Below the pieces are notes generated by a model. It worked only from the letters and a program-made list of their open reading frames with translations. It was not told where the DNA came from and ran no database searches. A program made the translations under genes and the position numbers. A DNA stretch of 10,913 nt from Candidatus Iainarchaeum sp. (GTDB lineage Archaea; Iainarchaeota; Iainarchaeia; Iainarchaeales; JAXPJC01): NCBI GenBank assembly GCA_018304445.1, contig JAGVWD010000016.1, positions 1 to 10,913 of the forward strand, written 5' to 3'. Shown here in pieces: positions 1 to 10,913 of this stretch. How positions within the stretch are numbered: the first letter of the stretch is position 1; each line of letters starts with the position of its first letter.

Positions 1-404
1 ATATCGCCATATTCTGCGCGGACCCACCATGGAGTTAAGACTGCTAAAAGAATCAATATGAAAAATACGAGGTTTTGAGAGCGAAAGGCGCCCATTGCTT
101 GAAGGCGGGAGTGGTTTATTAAGTCTAAACCTTTGCCTTTTGGAAAGACCTTAATTATTGGAGCGTTGTCGTCAATTGCATTATGAAAAGATAGCACATC
201 TTCGAGTTTTTCTTTTGGGAGCAGCTCCGCTAGCGCTTGGCCGGTTAGGCTCTTTCCAGTACCTGGATCGCCGATAAGAAGAACGTGCCTGCGCTGCCTG
301 GATGCTTTTTTGATTATGTTAACTGCTTCGTCCTGGCCTATTATTTGGTCGGCGAGCTTTTTGGGGATCTTAATTTCAGATGTATTCTTGAACTTGAGGG
401 TCAT
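1..404 (-). CDS. lonB: Archaeal membrane-type Lon protease (LonB), N-terminal part, cut by window edge
   Basis: ATP-dependent protease that degrades unfolded and regulatory proteins at the inner face of the membrane; in archaea LonB is the membrane-bound AAA+ protease. Only the first 134 codons are present. The protein begins with the typical entry segment (IPKKLADQIIGQDEAV, residues 13-28), followed by a Walker A motif GDPGTGKS at residues 45-52. A hydrophobic segment at about 110-128 fits the first of the two membrane helices that archaeal LonB carries inserted between Walker A and Walker B. Walker B, sensor motifs and the Ser-Lys protease domain lie outside the window. The ATG at 404 is preferred because a TATA-like sequence lies about 27 nt upstream. 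It lies 47 bases after the PRC-barrel gene on the same strand. The family call is firm; intactness cannot be judged. Confidence 0.9.
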   Translation of the reverse strand, partial: MTLKFKNTSEIKIPKKLADQIIGQDEAVNIIKKASRQRRHVLLIGDPGTGKSLTGQALAELLPKEKLEDVLSFHNAIDDNAPIIKVFPKGKGLDLINHSRLQAMGAFRSQNLVFFILILLAVLTPWWVRAEYGD

Positions 405-423
405 GGTAATCTCTTAGGATTGA

Positions 424-437
424 TATGTTTAAAAAAG
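424..437 (-). promoter_or_regulatory. Possible lonB promoter (TATA-like)
   Basis: On the minus strand the sequence reads CTTTTTTAAACATA, centred about 27 nt before the lonB ATG. That is the archaeal TATA-to-start distance of a leaderless or nearly leaderless mRNA. The T-run could equally serve as the terminator of the upstream PRC-barrel gene, so this is tentative. Confidence 0.35.
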
Positions 438-451
438 TTAGCTTTATGGGA

Positions 452-715
452 TTATGCGACGTCATCTTCTGATACTACTACGAAGTCGCCTATCGCGATA
501 ACTGACGAGAAGGGTATTAATAACTCTCCATTTGGGTCTTTTTCTAGCTCTAACCCCTCAGTATATGTTGTTGGGTTTCTTAAGATTATATGGATGAGCT
601 CGCCAGTTCTTGTTTCGAATGTGACATTACCTACTTCACCAAAGCGTTTACCTGATTTTGTGACAACTGTTTTGCCAAGAATCTGTTTTGAATATTTCTT
701 TTCTTCTTCTGACAT
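452..715 (-). CDS. PRC-barrel domain protein
   Basis: Small 87-residue protein made of a single PRC-barrel fold. After a charged start (MSEEEKKYS) it shows the family pattern: LGKTVVTKSGKRFGEVGNV (residues 13-31), then a strand pair around LIHIILRNP and the closing LIPFSSVIAIGDFVVV. It has no signal peptide or membrane helix, so it should be cytoplasmic. Stand-alone archaeal PRC-barrel proteins are mostly of unknown function; some in haloarchaea (CdpB proteins) take part in cell division, and bacterial relatives bind RNA-processing partners such as ribosomal proteins. Nothing here assigns one of those roles. It is divergent from the cdc6 gene and has a good TATA box about 30 nt before the ATG. 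The domain call is solid, the role unknown. Confidence 0.85.
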   Translation of the reverse strand: MSEEEKKYSKQILGKTVVTKSGKRFGEVGNVTFETRTGELIHIILRNPTTYTEGLELEKDPNGELLIPFSSVIAIGDFVVVSEDDVA

Positions 716-737
716 GTTGGTTTAAGCTACTACCTCG

Positions 738-756
738 TTGTTTATAAATCTTTCCG
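738..756 (-). promoter_or_regulatory. Promoter of the PRC-barrel gene (BRE and TATA box)
   Basis: Minus-strand reading GGAAAGATTTATAAACAA: a purine-rich BRE-like element followed by a TATA box (TTTATAAAC) centred near 745, about 30 nt before the ATG at 715. This spacing predicts a leader of only a few nucleotides. Confidence 0.6.
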
Positions 757-1091
757 AAGAGAAAATATTAGATATATTTGTTGAATTTTTGATGGGGGTG
801 ACACCTTGTTTTCTTATGGAGGTTGTTTTGTTTGTTTTGTGTTTTATTGGGGTATAGATTGTGATTGTTGTTGAAATTGAGAATTTTTATTTTTTTATTA
901 TTTATATTACTTTATAAGTATTTCTATATATTGTTATATGTATTATAAAGTTAGCTTTTTTTCTCAGTTTATTATGCTTATTTGGTTTTTTGAAGATAGA
1001 GGAATATCTCGGTTATTATATTCTGATTATTATATTTTATGATATACATATTTTAATTTAGATATTCTATTTGGTTACTGAACAATTTTCA

Positions 1092-1109
1092 AAAATTCTG
1101 AAGAATTTT
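1092..1109. repeat. Perfect palindrome
   Basis: AAAATTCT-GA-AGAATTTT, two 8-base arms around a 2-base centre, placed between the AT-rich core and the ORB-like boxes. It may be a binding site for a dimeric DNA-binding protein. It lies too far upstream of the cdc6 ATG and TATA box to be a terminator of that gene. Confidence 0.6.
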
Positions 1110-1113
1110 AGTC

Positions 1114-1142
1114 TCCATCGGAAATATAGGTGTCGGTTTCCA
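1114..1142. promoter_or_regulatory. Pair of ORB-like sites in opposite orientation
   Basis: TCCATCGGAAA at 1114-1124 on the plus strand matches the dyad-like core of archaeal origin recognition boxes (TCCAnTGGAAA type) with small differences. GTTTCCA at 1136-1142 is its half-site TGGAAAC on the minus strand. The pair lies just upstream of the cdc6 TATA box, so Orc1/Cdc6 binding here could both mark an origin and repress its own gene. The match is by eye against a remembered consensus. Confidence 0.4.
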
Positions 1143-1157
1143 TATTCTACTTACACA

Positions 1158-1171
1158 ATCCTTAAATATTT
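1158..1171 (+). promoter_or_regulatory. cdc6 promoter (TATA box)
   Basis: ATCCTTAAATATTT: the TATA element CTTAAATATT is centred about 27 nt before the ATG at 1193. This predicts a leaderless cdc6 mRNA, and it is the main reason for choosing that ATG over the in-frame TTG at 1175. Confidence 0.6.
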
Positions 1172-1192
1172 TCATTGAACTTTCAAAGACCC

Positions 1193-2416
1193 ATGACAAA
1201 AAAACTTACTGAATTCTTAGAAAGTTACATCAACAAACAGTCGATTTTCAAGGATAAAAGAGCATTACAGAGCAACTATACACCAAAACGAGCGCCATAT
1301 CGAGGCGAGCAGATAAACCAGCTAGCCAGCATACTTGCACCGTCCTTGCGAATGGAGAAGCCTTCAAATGTGTTTGTTTATGGAAGGCCAGGCACTGGAA
1401 AGACGTTGGTTGCAAAGTATGTTACGCATAGCATAACAAAGATTGCTGAAAAGAACAAGAAGAATGTAACTATTGTTTATTTAAACTGCAAGATGAAAAG
1501 GGTTGCAGACACAGAATACAGGCTTGTGGCACAGCTGCTTAAAGGTCTTGGGGTAAGCGTGCCCGATACCGGGTTGCCCACAGACGTGCTTTATCACAAA
1601 CTCTTCGAAAAAATAGACGAGAAAAGGCAGCACATCATAATCGCACTAGACGAAATAGATTCGTTGGTCAGAAAAACAGGAGACGGGTTCCTTTACAGCC
1701 TTACGCGCATGAACAGCGAACTGAAGAACGCAAGCATAACTACCATCGGCATAACAAACGACGTCTTGTTCTTGGAAGGACTGGATGTTCGCGTCAGGTC
1801 TTCTTTGAGTGAAGAAGAGCTTGTGTTCAAGCCGTACGATGCGGTACAGTTGCAAGACGTACTACAGGAAAGGGTCTTCGAGGGTTTCCGCGAAGACGTG
1901 GTTAGTCCAGAAGTTGTAAGCCTCTGCGCAGCCATAGCAGCCCAGGAACACGGCGACGCAAGAAGAGCACTGGACCTTCTAAGAATAGCAGGAGAAACAG
2001 CCGAAAGAAACAACGACAACAAAGTAACCGATCTTCATGTAAATGAGGCGCAGGATAAAATTGATGTTGAAAGAACGATCGAGGTTATAAAAGGCCAACC
2101 AAAACAGTCGCAGGCCGTTCTAATAACGATAATAAAACTCATAGAAGCACAGAAAAAACAGGGCAGATGGACTGACAAAAGACTGCTCACAGGCAGCGTA
2201 TACGAGTCTTACAGGGAAACGTGCGGGAGAAACAACTTAAAACCGCTCACACAAAGAAGGGTCGGCGACCTGATCAGCGAACTTGACATGCTGGGCATCA
2301 TTTCTACCAAGGTCATCTCAAAAGGCAGATACGGAAGAACACGGGAAATATCGCTCGCGCTTAACGAAACGATAGCCCACAAAGCTGAGAGAATACTAGC
2401 AGATAAATTCTATTAG
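1193..2416 (+). CDS. cdc6: Orc1/Cdc6 replication initiator (AAA+ ATPase)
   Basis: Binds origin recognition boxes and loads the MCM helicase at archaeal origins. The 407-residue product has the standard length and order: an N-terminal segment with the conserved YTPKRAPYRGEQI (30-41), an AAA+ domain with Walker A GRPGTGKT (64-71), Walker B ALDEID (151-156), sensor 1 around TIGITND (184-190), an arginine-rich VRVRSSL (199-205) and sensor 2 GDARRALD (254-261). A C-terminal winged-helix domain from about residue 290 ends in RYGRTREISL, the DNA-contacting wing region. All ATPase motifs are intact. The ATG at 1193 fits a leaderless promoter; a TTG at 1175 would add six residues. It is the first gene of a run with DP1 (12-base gap), and ORB-like sites upstream suggest autoregulation and a nearby origin. 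Confidence 0.95.
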   Translation: MTKKLTEFLESYINKQSIFKDKRALQSNYTPKRAPYRGEQINQLASILAPSLRMEKPSNVFVYGRPGTGKTLVAKYVTHSITKIAEKNKKNVTIVYLNCKMKRVADTEYRLVAQLLKGLGVSVPDTGLPTDVLYHKLFEKIDEKRQHIIIALDEIDSLVRKTGDGFLYSLTRMNSELKNASITTIGITNDVLFLEGLDVRVRSSLSEEELVFKPYDAVQLQDVLQERVFEGFREDVVSPEVVSLCAAIAAQEHGDARRALDLLRIAGETAERNNDNKVTDLHVNEAQDKIDVERTIEVIKGQPKQSQAVLITIIKLIEAQKKQGRWTDKRLLTGSVYESYRETCGRNNLKPLTQRRVGDLISELDMLGIISTKVISKGRYGRTREISLALNETIAHKAERILADKFY

Positions 2417-2420
2417 GCTC

Positions 2421-2426
2421 GTGATC
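2421..2426 (+). promoter_or_regulatory. Ribosome binding site of DP1
   Basis: GTGATC two bases before the ATG at 2429 is complementary to the 3' end of archaeal 16S rRNA. Internal genes of this run thus use Shine-Dalgarno initiation, while the first gene looks leaderless. Confidence 0.5.
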
Positions 2427-2428
2427 AC

Positions 2429-3523
2429 ATGGAAGATATTGTAACAAGGCTTTTCAAAAAAGGCAAGCTCGTTACTCCCGAAGCCCTTGACTACATAAAC
2501 TCCAAGAAACTGGAAGAGGTACTTCTTAGTGATATCACGGAAACAGTAATAACAAAAGTGGCAATAGAAAAAGCATCAGACATACGGATATTGAAAAACC
2601 TTACAAGCAAGAAAAAGGAACTCACGGCAGAAGACTTTACAAACTTCTACAACATCAAACTAGAAAAGATAAGAGAAATAATTTTACAGCGCATACAGAA
2701 GAACTTTGTATCAATCAATAAGCTTGACACAACTAGGCAGGAAGTTTATGTAGTAGGTATTGTCAAGGACATTAAGAATAAGGAAAAAACAATAGTGGAA
2801 TTAGAAGATGTTACAGGCACAGTACAGGTCATACTGGAAAAAACCGCCGACATCGAACTCGACGATGTAATCGCAGTAAAAGCGATCAGCGGCGGGAAAG
2901 TGCTTTTTGGCCAACAGGTTATTTATCCTGAAATACCTCTCAGGAAACCCAATACAGGCCATGGCAAGGCATGCTTCATATCAGACCTGCATTTGAATGA
3001 AACTCCGCCCCCGGCGTTCGAAAAACTGTTGCAGTGGCTCGAGACGCAGCCAATAGACGCAATTTTTGTTGCAGGCGATATCGGCGAAAAAGATAAATTT
3101 GAAGACATGATATCACAATATTGCGCTGAAAAGACAGTATTTGTGATTCCAGGAGAATTAGACAAGGAAGAAGAATACCCCCAGACACCCCTGGAATTTA
3201 CAAAACGCAACATCATATCATTAAGCAACCCCGCAATGATAGAATTTGGCGGCATAAATATCCTTATTATACACGACATGGAGATGCAAATGCTGAAAAA
3301 AAGGTACCTTGGCAAATCAAAACAAATAACACACAGCGATCATCTTGTTTTGGATATAGTACCCGATATTGTCCACTTCGGTCACAGCCATGAACCGCAG
3401 GTAACCAACTACAAATCAGTAACCATGGTGAATTCCGGCTCCCTGCTCGGAAAATTTGCCCCGGTCATTATAGACCTTGCTACAAGGGAATCTTTCCAGG
3501 ATACGTCATGGGACAAGAGTTAG
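2429..3523 (+). CDS. dp1: DNA polymerase II (PolD) small subunit DP1, with altered catalytic motif
   Basis: DP1 is the small subunit of archaeal PolD, with a calcineurin-like phosphodiesterase domain that gives 3'-5' proofreading and a domain that binds the large subunit DP2. The 364-residue product has an N-terminal helical region (1-95), an OB-fold (about 104-170: EVYVVGIVKDI to VIYPEIP) and a phosphodiesterase domain (about 178-364). Visible motifs are DLH (186-188), GD (217-218), IHD (281-283) and GHSH (318-321). Motif III, normally GNHD, reads GELD (242-245), so the metal-binding Asn and catalytic His are missing. This could reduce or abolish nuclease activity, as in the eukaryotic B subunits. 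At 364 residues it is short for DP1 because little linker separates the N-terminal and OB parts. No DP2 gene is in the window; a family-B polymerase follows instead. Confidence 0.9.
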   Translation: MEDIVTRLFKKGKLVTPEALDYINSKKLEEVLLSDITETVITKVAIEKASDIRILKNLTSKKKELTAEDFTNFYNIKLEKIREIILQRIQKNFVSINKLDTTRQEVYVVGIVKDIKNKEKTIVELEDVTGTVQVILEKTADIELDDVIAVKAISGGKVLFGQQVIYPEIPLRKPNTGHGKACFISDLHLNETPPPAFEKLLQWLETQPIDAIFVAGDIGEKDKFEDMISQYCAEKTVFVIPGELDKEEEYPQTPLEFTKRNIISLSNPAMIEFGGINILIIHDMEMQMLKKRYLGKSKQITHSDHLVLDIVPDIVHFGHSHEPQVTNYKSVTMVNSGSLLGKFAPVIIDLATRESFQDTSWDKS

Positions 3524-3661
3524 AAAAAGATATGGCTATAGTTGCCCAGCTTAATTCAGGATATTATACAAATTGGCCAGATACAGCTAGCCGAAATCTA
3601 ATACCTGTTTGTTTGGTTAGCTATAAAACCGTTCCAAACACAAAGATTCCAGTGATTGCAA
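3524..3661 (+). promoter_or_regulatory. DP1-PolB intergenic region with internal promoter and ribosome binding site
   Basis: This spacer carries a TATA-like sequence CTATAAAACC (3621-3630) about 35 nt before the polymerase start, and GTGATT (3652-3657), a ribosome binding site four bases before the ATG at 3662. A wobble-containing inverted repeat (AGCTAGCC 3585-3592 with GGTTAGCT 3615-3622) lies just upstream of the TATA. The polymerase is therefore probably expressed from its own promoter as well as by read-through. Confidence 0.45.
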
Positions 3662-6331
3662 ATGCGCATGCAAATTATCGATGTCGACTATATTTTCAAC
3701 GGATCAAAACCCGTCATAAGAATTTTTGGCAAAACTGAAAACGGCAATTCTGTTTGCGTCATGTATGACAAATTTCTCCCCTATTTTTATGCGAAAATAG
3801 ACACGACAGAAAAATTGAAGAAATTGCAAGACATAAAAGAGATAAAATCCGCCGACCAAACAGAAATGTTCACACCACTTGGATACGCGGCACAACCAAT
3901 GGAACTGGTAAAGATAACGGTTCTTAACCCGCAAGACGTCCCGAAAATAAGAGAGTTAATTGAACAGGAAGGCATGGAAACTTTCGAGTCTGATATAATG
4001 TTCAAGTACAGGTTCATGGTTGACCACAAACTAAAAGGAATGCAATGGATAGACGTCAATGCAACAAGGTCGCTGGCAACGACTGTAAAGATCCCGGGAT
4101 ATTACGCCAATTCACTTGAACCGACTGAAAAAATAGAAAATGCCAGCCTAAAGACGATGGCCGTGGACATCGAGTGCCTATTAACGGACAGCACAAAACC
4201 AATGGATTCGAAACGCGACCCCATAATCATGATAGCAATGGCGTTCGAGCCGGAATTCAAAGGCAAAAAAACACTGGTTCTGACGGCAAAGCCTACAAAG
4301 GAAGCAGACACGTTGGGGTTCCAGGACGAAAGGGAAATGCTTTCAGAATTCTTGAAAATTATCGATGAATACGACCCTGATGTTCTGACAGGCTACAACA
4401 TCAACGGCTTCGACATGCCGTACATGTTTGACAGACTAAAGAAATTCAACCTTCCCAACACGTTCGGCAGGTGCAAAAACAAAGGCGCGTATACAAGATC
4501 GGTCGGGATGCAAGAAAGCAAAGAAACTTCCGTCCCCGGCAGGATTGTGGCGGATTCTTACCAAATAATCAAGCGCGACCCGTGGGTAAAATTCCACAGG
4601 TACAACCTGAACACAATAGCACAGAAGCTTCTTCAAGAACAAAAACACGACGTCTCTTTCAAAGAAATGTTTGGATTGTGGAACGGGGACAGGAACGATC
4701 TCAAAAGATTCATTGAATACGCAAGAAAAGACGCCGAGCTCGCGCTCAGACTTCTTACTGAAAAAGGGCTTCTGGGCAAATTCTTCGAGCTTTCCAAGAT
4801 TTCAGGACTCCTGGTGCAAGACTGCCTAGGCGGGCAGGCGCCGCGCGTTGAGATGATGCTGTTGCACGAATTCAAGACAAAAGGTTTTGTAATGCCGTCA
4901 AAACCTTCAAAGGCAGAGATGATAAAAAGATCAAAAGAACGAGAGAAAAAAGAACTAAAAGGTGCAACAGTTCTCGAGCCTTACAAAGGCTTGCACGCAG
5001 ACGGGTGTGTTCTTGTTTTGGACTTCAAGTCGCTTTATCCAAGCATCATGCGAACATACAACATATCGCCAGACACATTACTAAAAACAGAGCAAAACCT
5101 GGAGCACACGGAGTCCCCAACCGGCACGAAATTTGTCGTGCCGGCAGTACGTGAAGGCATACTCCCGCATCTTCTGCGCAGGCTGCTTGATGCCCGCGCA
5201 AACGCGAGAAAGGAGATGAAATCTTCTCAGGGTGAAACCAGGCGCATACTCAACGCGAAACAACTTGCAATCAAAGACCTGTCAAACAGCGTGTACGGCT
5301 ATACAGGCTACATAAGGGCCAGGCTTTACATGATCGACGTTGCAAATTCGATAACAGCATATGGGAGAGAAAACCTCGTCAAGACAAAAGGACTTATCGA
5401 GGACAGCACCAAGTTCAAGATAATTTATGCAGACACAGACTCGACGTTCATAAAAACGGATTTTACAAATCTTGAAGAAGCAAAAGAGGCCGGAGAAGCC
5501 ATAGGGAGCTTTGTTACAAAAAATCTCCCCGGCGATTTGGAATTGCAGTTTGAAAAGGTTTACAAGAGTTTCCTAATTCTTTCAAAGAAGCGCTACGCCG
5601 GATGGTGTTTTGTTCAGGAAAATGGCGAATGGAAGGACATAATAGAAATGAAAGGGATAGAAACGGTCCGCAGAGACTGGTGTGCGCTCGTTTCAGAGTC
5701 TATGGAAGATGTTTTGAAAACAATCCTTAAAGAAGGCGACGTCCACAAGGCAATAGCCTCAATCAAAGATATTGCAGAAAAAATAAAAACAGGCTCAGTG
5801 CCGCTGGAAAAACTGACAATTGTAAAAGGAATCACGAAAAGCCCCGAAAATTATGAAGGCATGTTGCCTCATATAGAGCTTGCAAAAAAACTCAAACTCA
5901 GAAACCCGCATGAACCGCCAAAAATAGGAGACAGGCTTGGATTTGTTATAATTAAAGGAAACCAACTGCTTTCAAAACGCGCAGAAGACCCCGATTATGT
6001 AATCGCCAACAAGCTTCAGATAGACTCTGATTACTACATACAAAGCCAGCTATTCCCGCCGCTCGAGAGGATATTTTCTTCAATGGGTATCGAGAAAAGC
6101 GAGATATTTGGCGGCGGAAGGCAAATAACTCTCGGAGAAATCATGAAAGGATTTGTGAAAAAACACGCAGTTGTGGAGCCGGACAACGGGATAGAAGGCT
6201 GGGAAAATTTTGTATGTAAAAAATGCAACAAATCTCACCGGAGAATTCCGCTTCAAGGAATATGTGACTGTGGCGGCGAGATACTCATGAGCTACCACGG
6301 CTCTGCCAGCGACAAGGTTTTGCTGAAATGA
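3662..6331 (+). CDS. polB: Family-B DNA polymerase with C-terminal zinc ribbon
   Basis: Replicative or repair polymerase with 3'-5' proofreading. Numbered from the ATG at 3662 (889 residues): the N-terminal domain opens with QIIDVDYI, the usual archaeal PolB start; exonuclease motifs are Exo I DIE (169-171), Exo II YNINGFD (245-251) and Exo III YARKD (353-357); polymerase motif A is DFKSLYPSI (454-462), motif B is KQLAIKDLSNSVYG (533-546), motif C is YADTDS (589-594), and KKRY is at 642-645. All catalytic aspartates are present. RQITLGEIM (820-828) aligns with the family's usual C-terminal PCNA-box region but lacks its aromatic residues. About 45 further residues carry C852-x2-C855 and C868-x-C870, a zinc ribbon rare in short archaeal PolB. 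ATG 3662 is favoured by ribosome binding site spacing; ATG 3668 and TTG 3656 are alternatives. The last bases overlap a hairpin. Confidence 0.95.
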   Translation: MRMQIIDVDYIFNGSKPVIRIFGKTENGNSVCVMYDKFLPYFYAKIDTTEKLKKLQDIKEIKSADQTEMFTPLGYAAQPMELVKITVLNPQDVPKIRELIEQEGMETFESDIMFKYRFMVDHKLKGMQWIDVNATRSLATTVKIPGYYANSLEPTEKIENASLKTMAVDIECLLTDSTKPMDSKRDPIIMIAMAFEPEFKGKKTLVLTAKPTKEADTLGFQDEREMLSEFLKIIDEYDPDVLTGYNINGFDMPYMFDRLKKFNLPNTFGRCKNKGAYTRSVGMQESKETSVPGRIVADSYQIIKRDPWVKFHRYNLNTIAQKLLQEQKHDVSFKEMFGLWNGDRNDLKRFIEYARKDAELALRLLTEKGLLGKFFELSKISGLLVQDCLGGQAPRVEMMLLHEFKTKGFVMPSKPSKAEMIKRSKEREKKELKGATVLEPYKGLHADGCVLVLDFKSLYPSIMRTYNISPDTLLKTEQNLEHTESPTGTKFVVPAVREGILPHLLRRLLDARANARKEMKSSQGETRRILNAKQLAIKDLSNSVYGYTGYIRARLYMIDVANSITAYGRENLVKTKGLIEDSTKFKIIYADTDSTFIKTDFTNLEEAKEAGEAIGSFVTKNLPGDLELQFEKVYKSFLILSKKRYAGWCFVQENGEWKDIIEMKGIETVRRDWCALVSESMEDVLKTILKEGDVHKAIASIKDIAEKIKTGSVPLEKLTIVKGITKSPENYEGMLPHIELAKKLKLRNPHEPPKIGDRLGFVIIKGNQLLSKRAEDPDYVIANKLQIDSDYYIQSQLFPPLERIFSSMGIEKSEIFGGGRQITLGEIMKGFVKKHAVVEPDNGIEGWENFVCKKCNKSHRRIPLQGICDCGGEILMSYHGSASDKVLLK

Positions 6332-6383
6332 TATGCTCTTAATACCCCCACGACCAAAGTCGTGGGTTTCTTGAGCATGTCAT
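6328..6383. repeat. Hairpin 1, overlapping the polymerase stop codon
   Basis: Outer stem ATGATATGCTC (6328-6338) pairs with GAGCATGTCAT (6373-6383) with one G-U wobble. The inner stem CCCACGAC (6347-6354) pairs perfectly with GTCGTGGG (6359-6366) around a CAAA loop. The outer left arm includes the TGA stop of the polymerase gene. Confidence 0.75.
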
Positions 6384-6444
6384 CCAGAAAGCATTGAGTT
6401 TCATCTGCTGCCTAAAGGCAGCAGTTTTCAATGCTTTCTCGGAT
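6382..6444. repeat. Hairpin 2, long imperfect palindrome
   Basis: AGAAAGCATTGA (6386-6397) pairs perfectly with TCAATGCTTTCT (6428-6439). Flanking ATCC (6382-6385) pairs with GGAT (6441-6444), leaving C6440 bulged. Inside, CTGCTGCC (6405-6412) pairs with GGCAGCAG (6417-6424) around TAAA. The internal loop is 7 nt on the left and 3 nt on the right. Confidence 0.8.
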
Positions 6445-6456
6445 AAATATATATAG
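6443..6456 (+). promoter_or_regulatory. Promoter of the 68-residue protein gene (TATA box)
   Basis: ATAAATATATATAG, centred about 28 nt before the ATG at 6478, predicts a leaderless transcript. It directly abuts the right arm of hairpin 2. Confidence 0.55.
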
Positions 6457-6477
6457 TTCTCCAGTGAAGAATAAATT

Positions 6478-6684
6478 ATGTCAAACAGGCACATCAAGAT
6501 AATAAACGGCAGAAGATATTACTACGAGTCTATCAGAAGAGGCAAGAAAGTTACCAGCAGATATTTGGGCCCAGTTGACGAAAGAAAAAGAAAGCCAAGA
6601 AAAGTGAATATTCAGCAAACCGAGGAAATAAAACAAGAGAGTCAGCCAGAGAAGCCACAAGAAGAGCAGGAGTACATAGGATAA
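6478..6684 (+). CDS. Small basic conserved hypothetical protein
   Basis: The product is 68 residues. Residues 1-35 form a compact basic unit that predicts two or three beta strands (IKIINGRRYYYESIRRG, then KVTSRYLGPV). This strand-turn pattern ending in YLGP recurs in small archaeal proteins and in the N-terminal segment of some transposases, where it is thought to contact nucleic acid; that comparison is from memory. Residues 36-68 are a hydrophilic, Lys/Glu/Gln/Pro-rich tail, probably disordered. It has no membrane segment or signal peptide. It stands alone, with its own TATA box after the double hairpin, and converges on the subtilase gene. I do not know its function; nucleic-acid binding is a reasonable guess from charge and fold pattern. 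Confidence 0.7.
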   Translation: MSNRHIKIINGRRYYYESIRRGKKVTSRYLGPVDERKRKPRKVNIQQTEEIKQESQPEKPQEEQEYIG

Positions 6685-6755
6685 ACTTTTCTCAATAAAT
6701 GAAAATCTCAGTTACTCTTGAAGATTCAAAACTTCGCATTCCACTATTTTTAAAA

Positions 6756-8657
6756 TCAGTCAGTTATGGTAACTGTATTGTCGGTTTCATTCTGTTCCAG
6801 ATAAATATTTGTCGGGTCAACCATGGCTCTTACCGTCTGAGTGCCTTGGTTGACATACTGGTATTCAACGTATATAAAAGCCGTCTCGTTTTTAGCCAGA
6901 GTAAGAGGAATAACACTGCTAACTTCTGATTCATTTGTGGCATTAAGCTTCCAGTAAACGTCGCTTATTCCGAGTGTGCTGTTGTTTTCTATCCAGAACT
7001 CGAAAATCCTTTTAAGTCCGGCGGAATTGAGTATCGTGAGATTCTTCGCGCGAAGATTGTACTTATCTACGGTTATTGTAATCGCCTGTGACCTCACGCT
7101 TCCCTGCGTCGAAGTTATTGAGGCATTAACCGTATATGTCCCGGGATTGGTGTAGAAATGCTCGACGTAGACAAGCGTCTCGTTGTAAGGTCCCAGCGAA
7201 ATATTCTGAGTGCCGTTTATCACTGTCCCGTCGCCAGTGGTTAGGTTCCAAGTAACGTTTATCGCGGAATTAAGGTCGTTGAAGATGCTAAACTCGAATA
7301 TATGGCGACCAGTAAGGTTTACGTGGATAGCAGATAAATCACTCACAAAGACGTCGTAAAGAACCGCCATGACGCTCCTGTAGGCGTCTATGCGCGGAAA
7401 CGTAAGGCGTGTGGCATGGTCGTATATTGGCTTCCCCGTGCGCTTCATTATTGCTTCAATCTGAGACGGTGTCAGCGATGCACCGCTCAGGTTCGCCGCC
7501 TGCAGCATTAAGGCTGCGATGCCGGCTACGTGGGGGGCTGCTGCGGAGGTGCCAGTACCTTCAGAATAACCGCCAGAAACATTTGTTGTGTTGATGTTTA
7601 CTCCTGGGGCCAACAAACCAAGTATACTGCCTCTATTACTTAAAGTATACAAACTATTATAGTCATCAGTCGCACCAACAGAAGTCACATTTGATCCACA
7701 TGCCGGTGATGTTATGCCTGTGATATTGCCAGAATTTCCAGAAGCAGCATCTACAAAAATATCATATTGAGCTGCAGTATTTGCTATGTCAACCACTGTA
7801 TCACTACCATCACATGTAGTTGAAGATATAAAATTTGTCTTTCCAAGACTAACAGTAATAACGGAAATGTTATAAACGGTTCTGTTTAAAATACATCGCT
7901 CAATACCACTACCTATTATTTCGAAAGTGCCGCCACCAGTCGAATTTGTAACTTTCATAACTACTAGCTTTGCTTCAAAAGATACGCCTCTATATTTAGA
8001 ATCGTTAGAGGCAACAATGCCAGAAACTGCGGTGCCGTGGCCGTCTCTGTCCATTGGGTTCATGTTGTTTGTTGTACATTGTTCATTAGCACAAAAATTA
8101 AAGCCACCTATAACCTTATTACAATTGCCAGCTAAAAATTGAGATTCTGTACAACTTCCTAAAGAAGGATGTGTATAATTAATTCCAGTATCAACAATAC
8201 ATACAACTTGCCCAGAACCACTATAGCCTAAATCCCACAACTTAGGAGTTTCTAATAGTGAGGCACTATTGTCAAGAAGTTTCTCAGATTCGCCTACCAA
8301 TGTAATACGTTTAACAAGAATATTTTTGCGCAGTTTTTCCAATCCTTGTTGTGTTATAAAACCTGAATAAGAAGGTACTATGCTAAATTTATATACAGGT
8401 AAAAAATCTGCATTAGTTAAATAGCGCTCGAATTCTCTTTGAATTAAATTAATTTTGTCTACATTCCACTTTAAATCTCCATATTTTAATTCGCTTGTAT
8501 TAATCCTTAAATCAATAAATACACGTACTATATCAGTTTTTATAAGCTGTTTTTCGACTAATGGATCGACATATGGTACTTGATTTTCAGAAATAGACTG
8601 AGCGTATGCAATATTGATGAAAAGTAACAATACCAATAATTCATTTAGTTTATGCAT
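6756..8657 (-). CDS. Secreted S8 subtilisin-like serine protease with propeptide and two C-terminal beta-sandwich domains
   Basis: An extracellular endoprotease of 633 residues. It has a signal peptide (hydrophobic LLVLLLFINIAYAQ at 7-20), an inhibitor-I9-like propeptide (about 40-122), then a complete S8 domain: Asp156 in IVDTGIN, His207 in DGHGTAVSG, oxyanion Asn308 in ASGNSGN and Ser371 in GTGTSAAAPHVAG. Eight cysteines, all between 153 and 320, suggest disulfides. Two CARDB-like beta-sandwich repeats follow (about 434-530 and 534-633). About two dozen N-x-S/T sequons indicate heavy surface glycosylation. No C-terminal membrane anchor is seen, so it is probably released or held by its anchored neighbours. 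Its ATG directly follows the TAG of the upstream gene. Base composition changes sharply near 7600: the part encoding residues after about 350 is much richer in G+C. Function firm, substrate unknown. Confidence 0.93.
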   Translation of the reverse strand: MHKLNELLVLLLFINIAYAQSISENQVPYVDPLVEKQLIKTDIVRVFIDLRINTSELKYGDLKWNVDKINLIQREFERYLTNADFLPVYKFSIVPSYSGFITQQGLEKLRKNILVKRITLVGESEKLLDNSASLLETPKLWDLGYSGSGQVVCIVDTGINYTHPSLGSCTESQFLAGNCNKVIGGFNFCANEQCTTNNMNPMDRDGHGTAVSGIVASNDSKYRGVSFEAKLVVMKVTNSTGGGTFEIIGSGIERCILNRTVYNISVITVSLGKTNFISSTTCDGSDTVVDIANTAAQYDIFVDAASGNSGNITGITSPACGSNVTSVGATDDYNSLYTLSNRGSILGLLAPGVNINTTNVSGGYSEGTGTSAAAPHVAGIAALMLQAANLSGASLTPSQIEAIMKRTGKPIYDHATRLTFPRIDAYRSVMAVLYDVFVSDLSAIHVNLTGRHIFEFSIFNDLNSAINVTWNLTTGDGTVINGTQNISLGPYNETLVYVEHFYTNPGTYTVNASITSTQGSVRSQAITITVDKYNLRAKNLTILNSAGLKRIFEFWIENNSTLGISDVYWKLNATNESEVSSVIPLTLAKNETAFIYVEYQYVNQGTQTVRAMVDPTNIYLEQNETDNTVTITD

Positions 8658-9143
8658 CTAATCGCCTAGTTTCTCTGTTTGCCCAGATAATTGTACCTTG
8701 TTGGCATACCATTTTTTATTTAGAGTTTCAATAATGTCTTCTGTCAGGTTGTTCAATTCATCACTCGAGAGCCTGCTGTCATATAAAAATATCAAAGAAG
8801 CAGAATCTATTACCTTTGCCCAATAGAGAACTTTGAACTCGTAAAGTCCTCTTTCCTTGTCAACAAGTCTGTTAAGATTTTCGTAGAAATACTTCTGAAA
8901 CTCAGAATTCTCAATAAAATTTACATCGGGTGATCTGTTAAGTACAGTGACAGCTGTTACATAATCATATTGTTTACCATTAAATGATATTAATAATTCT
9001 CGAGATTCTGATAATGTAATGTTTTCTGATTGTGACGAAACTTGATAATTAATTCCAAGAATTACGAGTATTAACATAATTACTCCTATAACATAAACCC
9101 AGTGTTTCCTTTCCAATTTCACCTTTCGTCTCATTCTTATCAT
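8658..9143 (-). CDS. Membrane-anchored hypothetical protein, paralogue of the N-terminal half of the 314-residue protein
   Basis: The product is 161 residues: a basic start, one membrane helix (about 15-32, after ERKHWVYV) and an outward-facing domain of about 120 residues that I do not recognise. That domain matches residues 37-153 of the 314-residue protein in this cluster: LLISFNGKQYDYVTAVTVLNR aligns with FWITFNEKVKDNLIAITAFNR, and KKWYANKVQLSGQTE aligns with EKWYTLDSDVSLFGTR. The N-terminal anchor also matches two neighbouring genes. Its ATG overlaps the stop of the PrcB-like gene (ATGA), and its TAG touches the subtilase ATG, so the three are probably made in fixed proportion. An in-frame ATG at 9134 has a better ribosome binding site (GATGAT) and is an alternative start. 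A role in subtilase anchoring or control is inferred from context only. Confidence 0.75.
   Translation of the reverse strand: MIRMRRKVKLERKHWVYVIGVIMLILVILGINYQVSSQSENITLSESRELLISFNGKQYDYVTAVTVLNRSPDVNFIENSEFQKYFYENLNRLVDKERGLYEFKVLYWAKVIDSASLIFLYDSRLSSDELNNLTEDIIETLNKKWYANKVQLSGQTEKLGD
9052..9122 (-). repeat. Anchor-coding repeat, copy in the 161-residue gene
   Basis: Plus-strand landmarks ATTCCAAGAATTA and ATAACATAAACCCAG recur in the same order, with changes, in copies at 9568-9625 and 10540-10592. Each encodes a basic start plus a membrane helix with W-V-Y. Confidence 0.55.
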
Positions 9144-9631
9144 CTCATTTCTTCGAATTTCACTTCTTCTGTAATTTTATCTAATTCTACTATGTGATAG
9201 GGTCTTGTAACAAGAAGACCTACCGTGCCACTGCCAGGACGACTTGTTTTGTACTGCACATTTATAGATTGATTAATTCTAATTATGTTATCAATAGTTA
9301 TCGAATAGCCTGTTGATGGTTTTTCTCCAAAGAAAACCGCTATAACTGTCTTGTTACTGAAGTCAACTATAGGCATATCTGGAGGCGGTCTGAATCCAGA
9401 GTACATCCCTTTCCAGAGTGATTCGAATTCATTTCCATTCTGTACAACTAAAGCATCAAAAGTTGTATGTGATGAACTTACGCCTTCTGCTAGAGTTTTA
9501 AATGTTATTTCAGCGAATTGCTGTTGCTTTTCGGAAGTAGAATATTGATTAAGATAAATACCAATGGAACCAAGAATTATAATCACCACTCCAACATAAA
9601 CCCAGCATTTTCTTTCAATTTTCATCTTCAT
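9140..9631 (-). CDS. Membrane-anchored PrcB-like protease complex subunit
   Basis: The product is 163 residues with one N-terminal membrane helix (about 9-27), a short linker and a domain with the PrcB C-terminal pattern (about 58-150). The pattern is a FESLWKGMY segment, then PIVDFSNKTVIAVFFGEKPS (87-106) with TGYSITIDNI, then a later RPGSGTVGLLVTRPYHIVEL (131-150). PrcB was named in Treponema denticola, where it belongs to the same complex as the subtilisin-like protease PrtP (dentilisin). Here too a subtilase is encoded in the same unit, two genes downstream. The domain probably faces outward and binds the protease or its substrate. ATG 9631 gives the longest form; ATG 9625 is possible, with GGATGA as ribosome binding site. 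The domain call is from memory of the pattern; the partnership is inferred from adjacency. Confidence 0.75.
   Translation of the reverse strand: MKMKIERKCWVYVGVVIIILGSIGIYLNQYSTSEKQQQFAEITFKTLAEGVSSSHTTFDALVVQNGNEFESLWKGMYSGFRPPPDMPIVDFSNKTVIAVFFGEKPSTGYSITIDNIIRINQSINVQYKTSRPGSGTVGLLVTRPYHIVELDKITEEVKFEEMR
9568..9625 (-). repeat. Anchor-coding repeat, copy in the PrcB-like gene
   Basis: Contains AACCAAGAATTATAA and CCAACATAAACCCAGC. It encodes the membrane segment KIERKCWVYVGVVIIILG, very like that of the 161-residue protein (ERKHWVYV). Confidence 0.55.
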
Positions 9632-9647
9632 CCTGCCTTCGTCGTGT

Positions 9648-10592
9648 TTATGAATATGTTGTATTTTCTCCGGTAATATTTAGAGAACTTATTTGAAGCT
9701 TCCACACCAAATACGCTTTTATTAAAGATACAGTATCTTGAAGGGCTGTAGTGGTTTTTCCAGTGTTATAATATATTTTTATAACGTGTGGATTAGTTTC
9801 AAGTTTATTTATTGCGGCCTTTGATGCATTACCAGCAATAATAGGTGATGATTGTGATTTCTCTTCTAATTTAAACTCATCTGTAGATAAAAACAAGAGT
9901 ATTAAATCTATGCTTTCTCTTTTATCCAAAGTTATAATTATAGAAGCGTATGAAATTTCGTCAAGTTGTTTTTGAATTGGTTCTTTCCAGATATCTACTA
10001 TTTTTGTGATATTATCAACAAACCTTGACTTATTTATAAAAATACTGTCTGTTACATTAGTTATGTTATTCATAGGTTGTTGGATTATAGTTTTATTTCC
10101 CTCGACCATCTCGAAAGACTTATTATTGGCAATATCACGGGTCCCAAATAGGCTTACATCAGAATCTAGAGTATACCATTTTTCTTTAAATATATTAATT
10201 AGCTTGTACAAAGTTATATTCTTTTCATAGTCAGTAATTCCTGGTTGATAATCAATAAAGATATTTACGCCATCTATTGTTGAATAGAATTTTATATTAA
10301 GATTTTCTATTCCGGCTATTTTTGTTGAGGAAATTTCATCCTGTAAAAGTTCTATGAATTTTTGATTAGGTTCTCCGCTGGGATTCTCCTTAGTTCGATT
10401 AAAAGCCGTTATGGCTATTAAATTATCCTTTACCTTTTCATTAAATGTTATCCAGAACGAACCCAGAGTATAATTATAAGTTACATTTATTTCTTTATTT
10501 GTTTGGATTTCTGTAGAAAGAGAAGATAAATAAATAACTATTCCAAGAATTAAGATTAATCCAATATAAACCCACTGCTTCTTGATTTTCAT
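9648..10592 (-). CDS. Membrane-anchored protein: paralogue domain fused to a subtilase-propeptide-like domain
   Basis: The product is 314 residues with one N-terminal membrane helix (about 7-23), an outward domain (37-153) shared with the 161-residue neighbour, an Asn-rich linker with several N-x-S/T sequons (155-200) and a C-terminal domain (about 204-303). The last resembles the propeptide of the subtilase in this cluster: PIQKQL then ASIIITLDKR aligns with PLVEKQL then IVRVFIDLR. NKLETNPHVIKIYYNTGK aligns with EKLRKNILVKRITLVGES, and LQDTVSLIKAYLVWKL aligns with LDNSASLLETPKLWDL. No catalytic domain follows. It could act in trans as a folding helper or inhibitor of the subtilase, held at the membrane. 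It has a GGTG ribosome binding site (10598-10601) and lies 16 bases before the PrcB-like gene. Function is inferred; the homology is by eye. Confidence 0.75.
   Translation of the reverse strand: MKIKKQWVYIGLILILGIVIYLSSLSTEIQTNKEINVTYNYTLGSFWITFNEKVKDNLIAITAFNRTKENPSGEPNQKFIELLQDEISSTKIAGIENLNIKFYSTIDGVNIFIDYQPGITDYEKNITLYKLINIFKEKWYTLDSDVSLFGTRDIANNKSFEMVEGNKTIIQQPMNNITNVTDSIFINKSRFVDNITKIVDIWKEPIQKQLDEISYASIIITLDKRESIDLILLFLSTDEFKLEEKSQSSPIIAGNASKAAINKLETNPHVIKIYYNTGKTTTALQDTVSLIKAYLVWKLQISSLNITGENTTYS
10540..10592 (-). repeat. Anchor-coding repeat, copy in the 314-residue gene
   Basis: Contains ATTCCAAGAATTAAGATTAA and CCAATATAAACCCACTG. It encodes MKIKKQWVYIGLILILGIVI, the shortest version of the shared anchor. 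Confidence 0.55.
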
Positions 10593-10597
10593 TCTAG

Positions 10598-10601
10598 CAC
10601 C
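10598..10601 (-). promoter_or_regulatory. Ribosome binding site of the 314-residue protein gene
   Basis: GGTG on the minus strand, five bases before the ATG at 10592; it supports that start. Confidence 0.45.
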
Positions 10602-10632
10602 TTATGCTGTCATGACGATTCTGTAAGCATGA

Positions 10633-10913
10633 CTACCCAATTTTCGTACCGTCTATGAACACTTCAACCTTTTCAGTTATCTCGCTTGAACTGAGGTTCT
10701 GCATTTCCAGAATGTATAAAGAAGGCGTCAGGTTTCTCATGTTAGTGGAGCTTTCTCCTATTGTAACATAATTGAAAGCCCACCTCTGGTTGCCGGAAGA
10801 TGTCACCTTGTCGAACTTTCCGGTCGTCTGGTTTCCTGTGAGGTTGTAAATTAAAAATAAAAATAAAAAAGCTGCCAAAATTTATAGGAATCAGATATCT
10901 CTTCCTTTTATTG
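10633..10913 (-). CDS. Partial membrane-anchored hypothetical protein, apparently frameshifted near its N-terminus
   Basis: The gene enters from the right window edge. The frame ending at the TAG (10633-10635) reads back through LTPSLYILEMQNLSSSEITEKV and a hydrophobic LAAFLFLFLIYNL to a TAA at 10884-10882. In the next frame, from 10912 to about 10883, the sequence reads NKRKRYLIPI, the basic start expected before a membrane helix. Dropping one A within 10883-10881 joins the two as KRKRYLIPI-ILAAFLFLFL. Either one base is extra (mutation or sequencing error) or the true start is elsewhere. An internal TTG at 10878 would give an 81-residue product with no basic leader. The rest has no family I recognise. 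It lies 40 bases before the 314-residue gene, on the same strand, and is another one-helix surface protein. Confidence 0.55.

Follow-up and report, generated by a model that had tools for sequence, protein, structure and literature searches.

What is a domain resembling a subtilase propeptide doing on a membrane-anchored protein that has no protease domain of its own? The question is raised by a gene near the end of a 10,913-nucleotide stretch of DNA from Candidatus Iainarchaeum sp. (assembly GCA_018304445.1, contig JAGVWD010000016.1, positions 1 to 10,913), referred to here as the window. The gene encodes a protein of 314 residues (p314) and lies in a minus-strand cluster with the gene for a secreted subtilase of 633 residues (the neighbouring subtilase). 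Its open reading frame (ORF) starts with ATG and has a guanine plus cytosine (GC) content of ~30%; in 2000 first-order Markov simulations of window positions 9000-10913, read in six frames, the longest stop-free run was 189 codons, compared with 314 in p314. The parts of p314, with confidence given as the predicted local distance difference test (pLDDT) of the AlphaFold model, are:

9648..10592, minus strand: p314, 314 residues; anchor, ferredoxin-like ectodomain, linker, propeptide-like domain and short 'mature-start' tail
10521..10583, minus strand: N-terminal membrane anchor, residues 4-24; a helix in the AlphaFold model, hydropathy peak at 8-26
10137..10475, minus strand: ferredoxin-like ectodomain, residues ~40-152; BLASTP E = 2e-6 to a 161-residue protein of the cluster, pLDDT only 43-69 in the p314 model
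9993..10136, minus strand: linker, residues 153-200, low confidence, with 6 of the protein's 13 NxS/T sequons
9762..9986, minus strand: subtilase-propeptide (I9-type) domain, residues ~203-277, from profile and predicted fold
9651..9761, minus strand: tail homologous to the propeptide/mature junction and first mature residues, which stops a little short of the catalytic-Asp strand; the profile alignment extends to residue 312

No protease domain follows the propeptide-like domain, as the ORF ends at residue 314 and has no PF00082 match.

The reading that we favour, at a probability of about one half, is that p314 is a membrane-tethered mimic of a subtilase propeptide which acts in trans as an inhibitor or escort. 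Its basis is the homology of the C-terminal part. The first-pass annotation of the window had aligned residues ~204-303 by eye with the propeptide and first mature residues of the neighbouring subtilase. Plain BLASTP draws the same alignment, although not significantly (E = 1.4; residues 206-303 with 34-147, 26 of 115 identical), and profiles were therefore needed. From 31 matches 19 subtilases were considered, and the N-termini of 12 of these, the neighbour not among them, were used to build a hidden Markov model (HMM); those left out were L014 (N-terminus the same as that of L033), L016, L022 and L034 (no alignable propeptide) and L026, L035 and L027 (motif pattern not found). Against this HMM p314 scored 48.9 bits (E = 1e-13), with a domain of 48.7 bits over residues 205-312, and the neighbouring subtilase scored 50.8 bits. 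The best of 2000 shuffles reached 12.7 bits, and chance similarity was therefore rejected. The p314 score was still 41.5 bits (E = 1.8e-11) after removal of two relatives that p314 itself had matched, and 36.1 bits after removal of four. Profile-profile alignment of the C-terminal 124 residues alone (hhalign) gave 96.7% and E = 3e-10 over 101 columns. A 25-row propeptide profile gave 62.2 bits, a figure that is partly circular as the source alignment held p314. These comparisons were made at low identity (at most 30% in the propeptide region to every aligned row), and a protein search with p314 recovered only p314 itself, whose cluster (P0001) has 5 members. Judged by its sequence, the C-terminus is a true subtilase-propeptide homologue, in which residues ~203-277 make up the propeptide fold and the homology of residues 278-312 is to the junction and the start of the mature enzyme.

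The predicted structure agrees with this assignment, since the propeptide region of p314 was given a confident fold by AlphaFold, and that fold was the I9 alpha/beta sandwich rather than another. The best VIA matches to residues 214-286 were the Tk-subtilisin propeptide (2z57, 2z58) and other subtilase propeptides, and the family profile A2, in which p314 is one of 13 rows, also matches Tk-subtilisin and subtilase propeptides by sequence. Two mixed alignments, A3 and A5, were kept out of the folding, as rows of the N-terminal domain (NTD) had been placed on the wrong domain. For the helix-capping residues, when aligned by eye, the position of BPN' Asp71 is Asn276 in p314 (Asn148 in SUB1-ProM), and that of Glu69 is Tyr274.

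The similarity also bears on where the domain came from. Residues 278-312 of p314 end in LNITGENTTYS, which is aligned with LNITGRNQTICIVDTG of the subtilase of genome G034. Because the match continues beyond the propeptide to the first residues of the mature enzyme and breaks off ahead of the catalytic-Asp strand, sequence comparison supports derivation of the domain from a truncated subtilase gene, as opposed to a convergent mimic. In pairwise comparisons (300 shuffles each) the C-terminal domain reached z = 17.6 with the subtilase of G034, 13.3 with that of G018 and 12.1 with that of G022, but only 4.0 with the neighbouring subtilase, i.e. the pair is not unusually similar. The NITG loop is common to p314 and the G034-, G018- and G022-type subtilases, whereas the neighbour has GYSGSGQ there. 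A recent copy of the neighbour is therefore disfavoured by the pairwise scores and the junction loop, although a poorly resolved 31-row propeptide tree (5 of 28 inner branches well supported) did not reject p314 and the neighbour as sisters (p-AU, the approximately unbiased test, 0.465). Of the partial duplication that had been proposed at first, the truncated subtilase gene thus stands, while copying from this particular neighbour is not supported by the sequences.

Searching the 156 genomes of the class with the propeptide profile gave 61 matches in 50 genomes, two of which were identified as stand-alone proteins (in G001, the nearest genome compared, and in G115). Eight of the 61 lay in open frames of less than 500 residues and were each inspected; the other 53 were taken as subtilases by length (541 residues or more). 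The remaining short-frame candidates were a subtilase broken by a run of N (G108), subtilases cut by contig ends (G043, G140) and other subtilases (G148:C32, G154), and a match in G032 that starts at a contig end was not counted as stand-alone. The G115 protein (L075 6679-7425; P0002, named hypothetical protein, Candidatus Aenigmarchaeota) has 238 residues arranged as signal peptide, propeptide, Cys-rich domain and transmembrane (TM) segment, and its end overlaps the start of a ~1440-residue subtilase (L075 2357-6691) with an alike propeptide (z = 22). A single relative of it was found, P0003, which is arranged in the same way and matches Pfam Inhibitor_I9 above cut-off; in the tree, the propeptide of P0003 is placed together with that of the G115 subtilase (99/94). 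Like p314, P0002 and P0003 are membrane-anchored stand-alone propeptides, with the G115 one directly preceding a subtilase; unlike p314, they have the TM segment near the C-terminus, a Cys-rich domain where p314 has its ferredoxin-like domain, and a propeptide that closely resembles the one of the G115 subtilase. In G014 (L062 823-1800) a single frame encodes a signal peptide, a propeptide-like domain, a TM segment, a second signal-like helix, a propeptide and a subtilase; the extra propeptide-like domain scored 22.4 bits (best shuffle 8.0) and has no match to Pfam Inhibitor_I9. The strongest argument for function is that the arrangement recurs in four further proteins, which have different anchors and two of which adjoin a subtilase or are fused with one. 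Tentatively, this recurrence can be extended to the Aenigmatarchaeota at large, where modular and fast-reshuffling spare propeptides, cut from subtilase genes more than once and carried on varied anchors (N-terminal, C-terminal, or between helices before the enzyme), might act in trans as surface brakes or escorts.

We read the window from its ORF list as archaeal, with plus-strand genes followed by the minus-strand cluster. The plus-strand names below come from ORF reading, without a family scan:

Plus strand: Cdc6/Orc1-like ATPase
Plus strand: DNA polymerase D small-subunit-like protein
Plus strand: family B DNA polymerase
6693..10890: island that contains the whole cluster and is missing from this site in G001
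10633..10878, minus strand: 81-residue ORF, relic of the 3' end of a large protein encoded after the G115 subtilase
10611..10628, minus strand: candidate relic AYRIVM, end of a subtilase catalytic domain, just upstream of p314
9140..9631, minus strand: membrane-anchored PrcB_C-domain protein, 163 residues; PF14343 46.3 bits against a cut-off of 24, hydropathy peak at 9-27
8658..9143, minus strand: anchored ferredoxin-like protein of 161 residues, paralogue of the N-terminal half of p314
6756..8657, minus strand: secreted subtilase, 633 residues, own propeptide, catalytic domain at residues 147-408; PF00082 134.7 bits

In transcription order the cluster runs from the 81-residue relic through p314, the PrcB_C protein and the 161-residue protein to the subtilase. 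From p314 downstream the genes are separated by 16 bases, then overlap by 4 bases and then abut directly, and this spacing therefore suggests that the four genes form one operon. The S8 domain of the neighbouring subtilase (134.7 bits) has an intact catalytic triad; D156, H207 and S371, which form the triad, and N308 are invariant in 11 sequences. Its C-terminal part has PKD/CARDB matches just below cut-offs. The fold, the anchor and the missing protease domain, all claimed at first pass, are supported, as is the shared apparent operon with an intact-triad subtilase.

We propose that the N-terminal helix would hold p314 in the membrane and that, outside the cell, the ferredoxin-like domain and glycosylatable linker would present the propeptide-fold domain. 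This domain would most likely act in trans, on a subtilase that the same operon exports. If it behaves as known propeptides do, its beta-sheet face would dock on two surface helices of the catalytic domain, while its C-terminal strand and tail would lie in the active-site cleft. The enzyme would stay inactive, be held at the cell surface, or both, until cleavage of the tether, and the tether would restrict the action to the surface of the membrane, the site at which the exported subtilase appears. We prefer inhibition with retention to chaperoning, since the neighbour, with a complete propeptide of its own, does not require another foldase. We infer that p314 may be a regulator dedicated to the neighbouring subtilase.

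Several observations weigh against this proposal. The C-terminal tail of p314, which would be expected to enter the active site, has a pLDDT of 29-36. The AlphaFold input alignment held 3 propeptide rows, and the fold is therefore not independent of sequence homology. When Foldseek was run on the whole p314 model no row reached E 0.001, and the two best rows were ferredoxin-like monooxygenase-type proteins spanning both domains, not propeptides. Pfam Inhibitor_I9 (PF05922) gave no p314 match above cut-off; it also gave none to the neighbouring subtilase's own propeptide, and the model is therefore insensitive here. To these are added the low z-score of p314 with its neighbour and two features of G001: its stand-alone propeptide protein (90 residues) stops before the last propeptide strand, and the genome keeps the NTD and 90-residue genes though the adjacent subtilase is a relic (two other subtilases are present in G001).

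The history of the cluster gives rise to the competing reading that survives best, namely that tandem rearrangements fused the broken 5' end of a subtilase gene to an anchored gene and that the C-terminal half is decaying without a role. G001 has 25% of sampled 31-mers in common with the window, and window positions 1484-6692 are collinear with G001:C1 at 94-96%. There ~295 bases stand in place of the cluster, and a related cluster lies elsewhere (C4), so that the window's cluster forms an island which G001 lacks at this position; the right edge of the island is drawn from a short match (exact over 10891-10911, 77% over 10855-10911). Relics lie all round. Just upstream of a 134-residue gene G001 has a 15-residue relic of the window-type subtilase (93% identical, E = 1.2e-7 in a small comparison), the 81-residue ORF is 44% identical over 62 residues to the last 62 of the 574 residues of the G115 large protein (E = 2e-17), and the suggested AYRIVM relic, which alone is not significant (6 residues, E = 7.6), is backed only by the G001 relic at the matching place. 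The cluster looks to have been cut and recombined repeatedly, which also feeds the decay scenario, and p314 breaks off immediately ahead of the catalytic strand, as would be expected of a chance truncation, with the 90-residue form of G001 shorter still. Nevertheless we consider decay without a role unlikely: an open frame of 314 codons at ~30% GC far exceeds the simulated maximum, the propeptide region keeps its frame and confident predicted fold at such low identity, and comparable forms are seen in further families of the class.

GC at third codon positions falls into two ranges: 0.18-0.32 for the p314, PrcB_C and 161-residue genes and for the initial two thirds of the subtilase gene, and 0.49-0.51 for the C-terminal part of the subtilase and the two core genes that were tested. 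The subtilase gene (6756-8657) is thus a composition mosaic, at 0.20 in the propeptide, 0.32 in the catalytic part and 0.50, like core genes, in the C-terminal part. A plasmid origin of the cluster was rejected, as a search of the plasmid collection gave no match to it.

Less probable again is an assembly factor for a dentilisin-like surface complex, in which p314, the PrcB_C protein and the 161-residue protein would dock the subtilase and the propeptide domain would not be inhibitory. One apparent operon does combine PrcB_C with a subtilase and weak PrcB and PrtP model matches, and in T. denticola PrcB is required for PrtP and lipoproteins have been proposed to anchor the complex (PMC8167434). 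The dentilisin operon prcB-prcA-prtP, which joins a subtilase with a PrcB_C-type anchored protein, is accordingly the nearest operon parallel to the cluster (PMC8167434). The model scores are nevertheless far below cut-offs (denti_PrcB on the PrcB_C protein, 55 bits against 125; PrtP, 61.7 against 300). No PrcA was recognised in the cluster (no NCBIfam match suggesting PrcA in p314 or the 161-residue protein, the presence of a PrcA model in the library being unverified), and no propeptide-like protein is described for dentilisin in the passages of PMC8167434 used here. The pairing does not look conserved, as PrcB_C occurs in 6 of the 156 genomes and never on a contig with a match to the propeptide profile or the subtilase search (the latter covering 40 genomes). 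PrcB_C and the large G115 protein (2 of 156 genomes) were therefore rejected as conserved partners; the G144 copy has no subtilase in the 9.4 kb inspected. A foldase that aids the cluster subtilase in trans after export, without inhibiting it, is the least probable reading, since although propeptides in general both inhibit and fold (PMC6993865) the neighbour's own propeptide scores equally well (50.8 bits), so that help in trans should be unneeded.

Among known systems the closest to p314 is SUB1-ProM of Plasmodium, a stand-alone propeptide-like gene beside subtilase genes whose product inhibits SUB1 (PMC6993865). Inhibition by SUB1-ProM was measured, whereas that by p314 is a prediction, and the portion of PMC6993865 used does not describe SUB1-ProM as membrane-tethered or as having a second ectodomain, unlike p314. 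The same portion lists further free-standing propeptide folds, all eukaryotic, comprising the MEROPS I9 stand-alone inhibitors (Pleurotus ostreatus, yeast peptidase B inhibitor, Arabidopsis propeptide-like inhibitor 1) and TgMIC5, and states that they may reflect convergent evolution (PMC6993865). Unlike the MEROPS set, p314 is archaeal, membrane-anchored and keeps mature-subtilase residues, and therefore does derive from a subtilase. The propeptides of Tk-subtilisin (2z57, 2z58) and other subtilases differ from p314 in being cis propeptides of their own enzymes. No archaeal or membrane-tethered stand-alone propeptide was found among the titles listed in searches of an open-access library, one of them poorly selective, which is weak evidence of absence as subscription papers lay mostly outside its scope. 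With the scar of its parent enzyme retained in the first mature residues, p314 would be an archaeal, membrane-tethered inhibitor-like module arisen by truncation of a protease gene. It provides an example on which ideas about the control of a surface protease in archaea with small genomes can be tested, with sister architectures in the phylum for comparison.

The N-terminal half of p314 has a separate history. Residues 1-150 are paralogous to the 161-residue neighbour (the BLASTP match given above) and to two G001 genes, and among the 156 genomes the ferredoxin-like NTD was convincingly found only in G001. An 18.3-bit match in G007 was dropped because it lies in a probable AAA-type ATPase, and a G078 match of p314 was dropped because it crosses five stops. 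Searching proteins with the NTD family gave four, i.e. the three known from the window and G001, and P0007. In the AlphaFold2 model of the 161-residue protein there is a helix (13-36) and, with pLDDT blocks of 80-97 over 51-150, a ferredoxin-like domain whose fold matches are only generic. The NTD has the topology of a propeptide, but it was not taken as a second one, as it has no profile match (hhalign 0.1%). The 50 VIA matches listed for it were diverse ferredoxin-like folds (best 9.0, eEF1B) and included no propeptide, although absence from such a list excludes nothing. For the 161/154-residue pair the ratio of nonsynonymous to synonymous substitution rates (dN/dS) was 0.34, with dS 0.44. 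In G001 the gene order is an anchored 134-residue protein, the 90-residue signal-peptide-plus-propeptide protein (19.6 bits against the 12-row HMM) and an anchored 154-residue protein, with 4-base overlaps. By sequence assignment, fused p314 and the split G001 pair carry the same two domain kinds at comparable places, though the p314 domain has no direct similarity to the 90-residue protein (z about 0).

The PrcB_C protein (9140-9631), p314 and the 161-residue protein have the same KxWVY-type anchor start, and similar anchors with two kinds of ectodomain suggest that 5' ends recombine. In G034 the gene immediately upstream of the subtilase (L001 1926-2267) encodes a 113-residue protein whose N-terminus is hydrophobic and whose order of strands and helices also looks ferredoxin-like by eye.

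Repeats were also seen in the window. Next to the left edge of the island (6325-6450) is a ~100 bp element with inverted repeats, resembling a miniature inverted-repeat transposable element, with dozens of G001 and G002 matches among those listed. A second repeat, in the gap before the PolB gene (3532-3633), matches one place in G002:C4 on both strands (79%; 91% over part). Just past the 3' end of the subtilase gene, a 26-base stretch (6729-6754) recurs at 96% at no fewer than three places each (at least 3) in G001 and G002.
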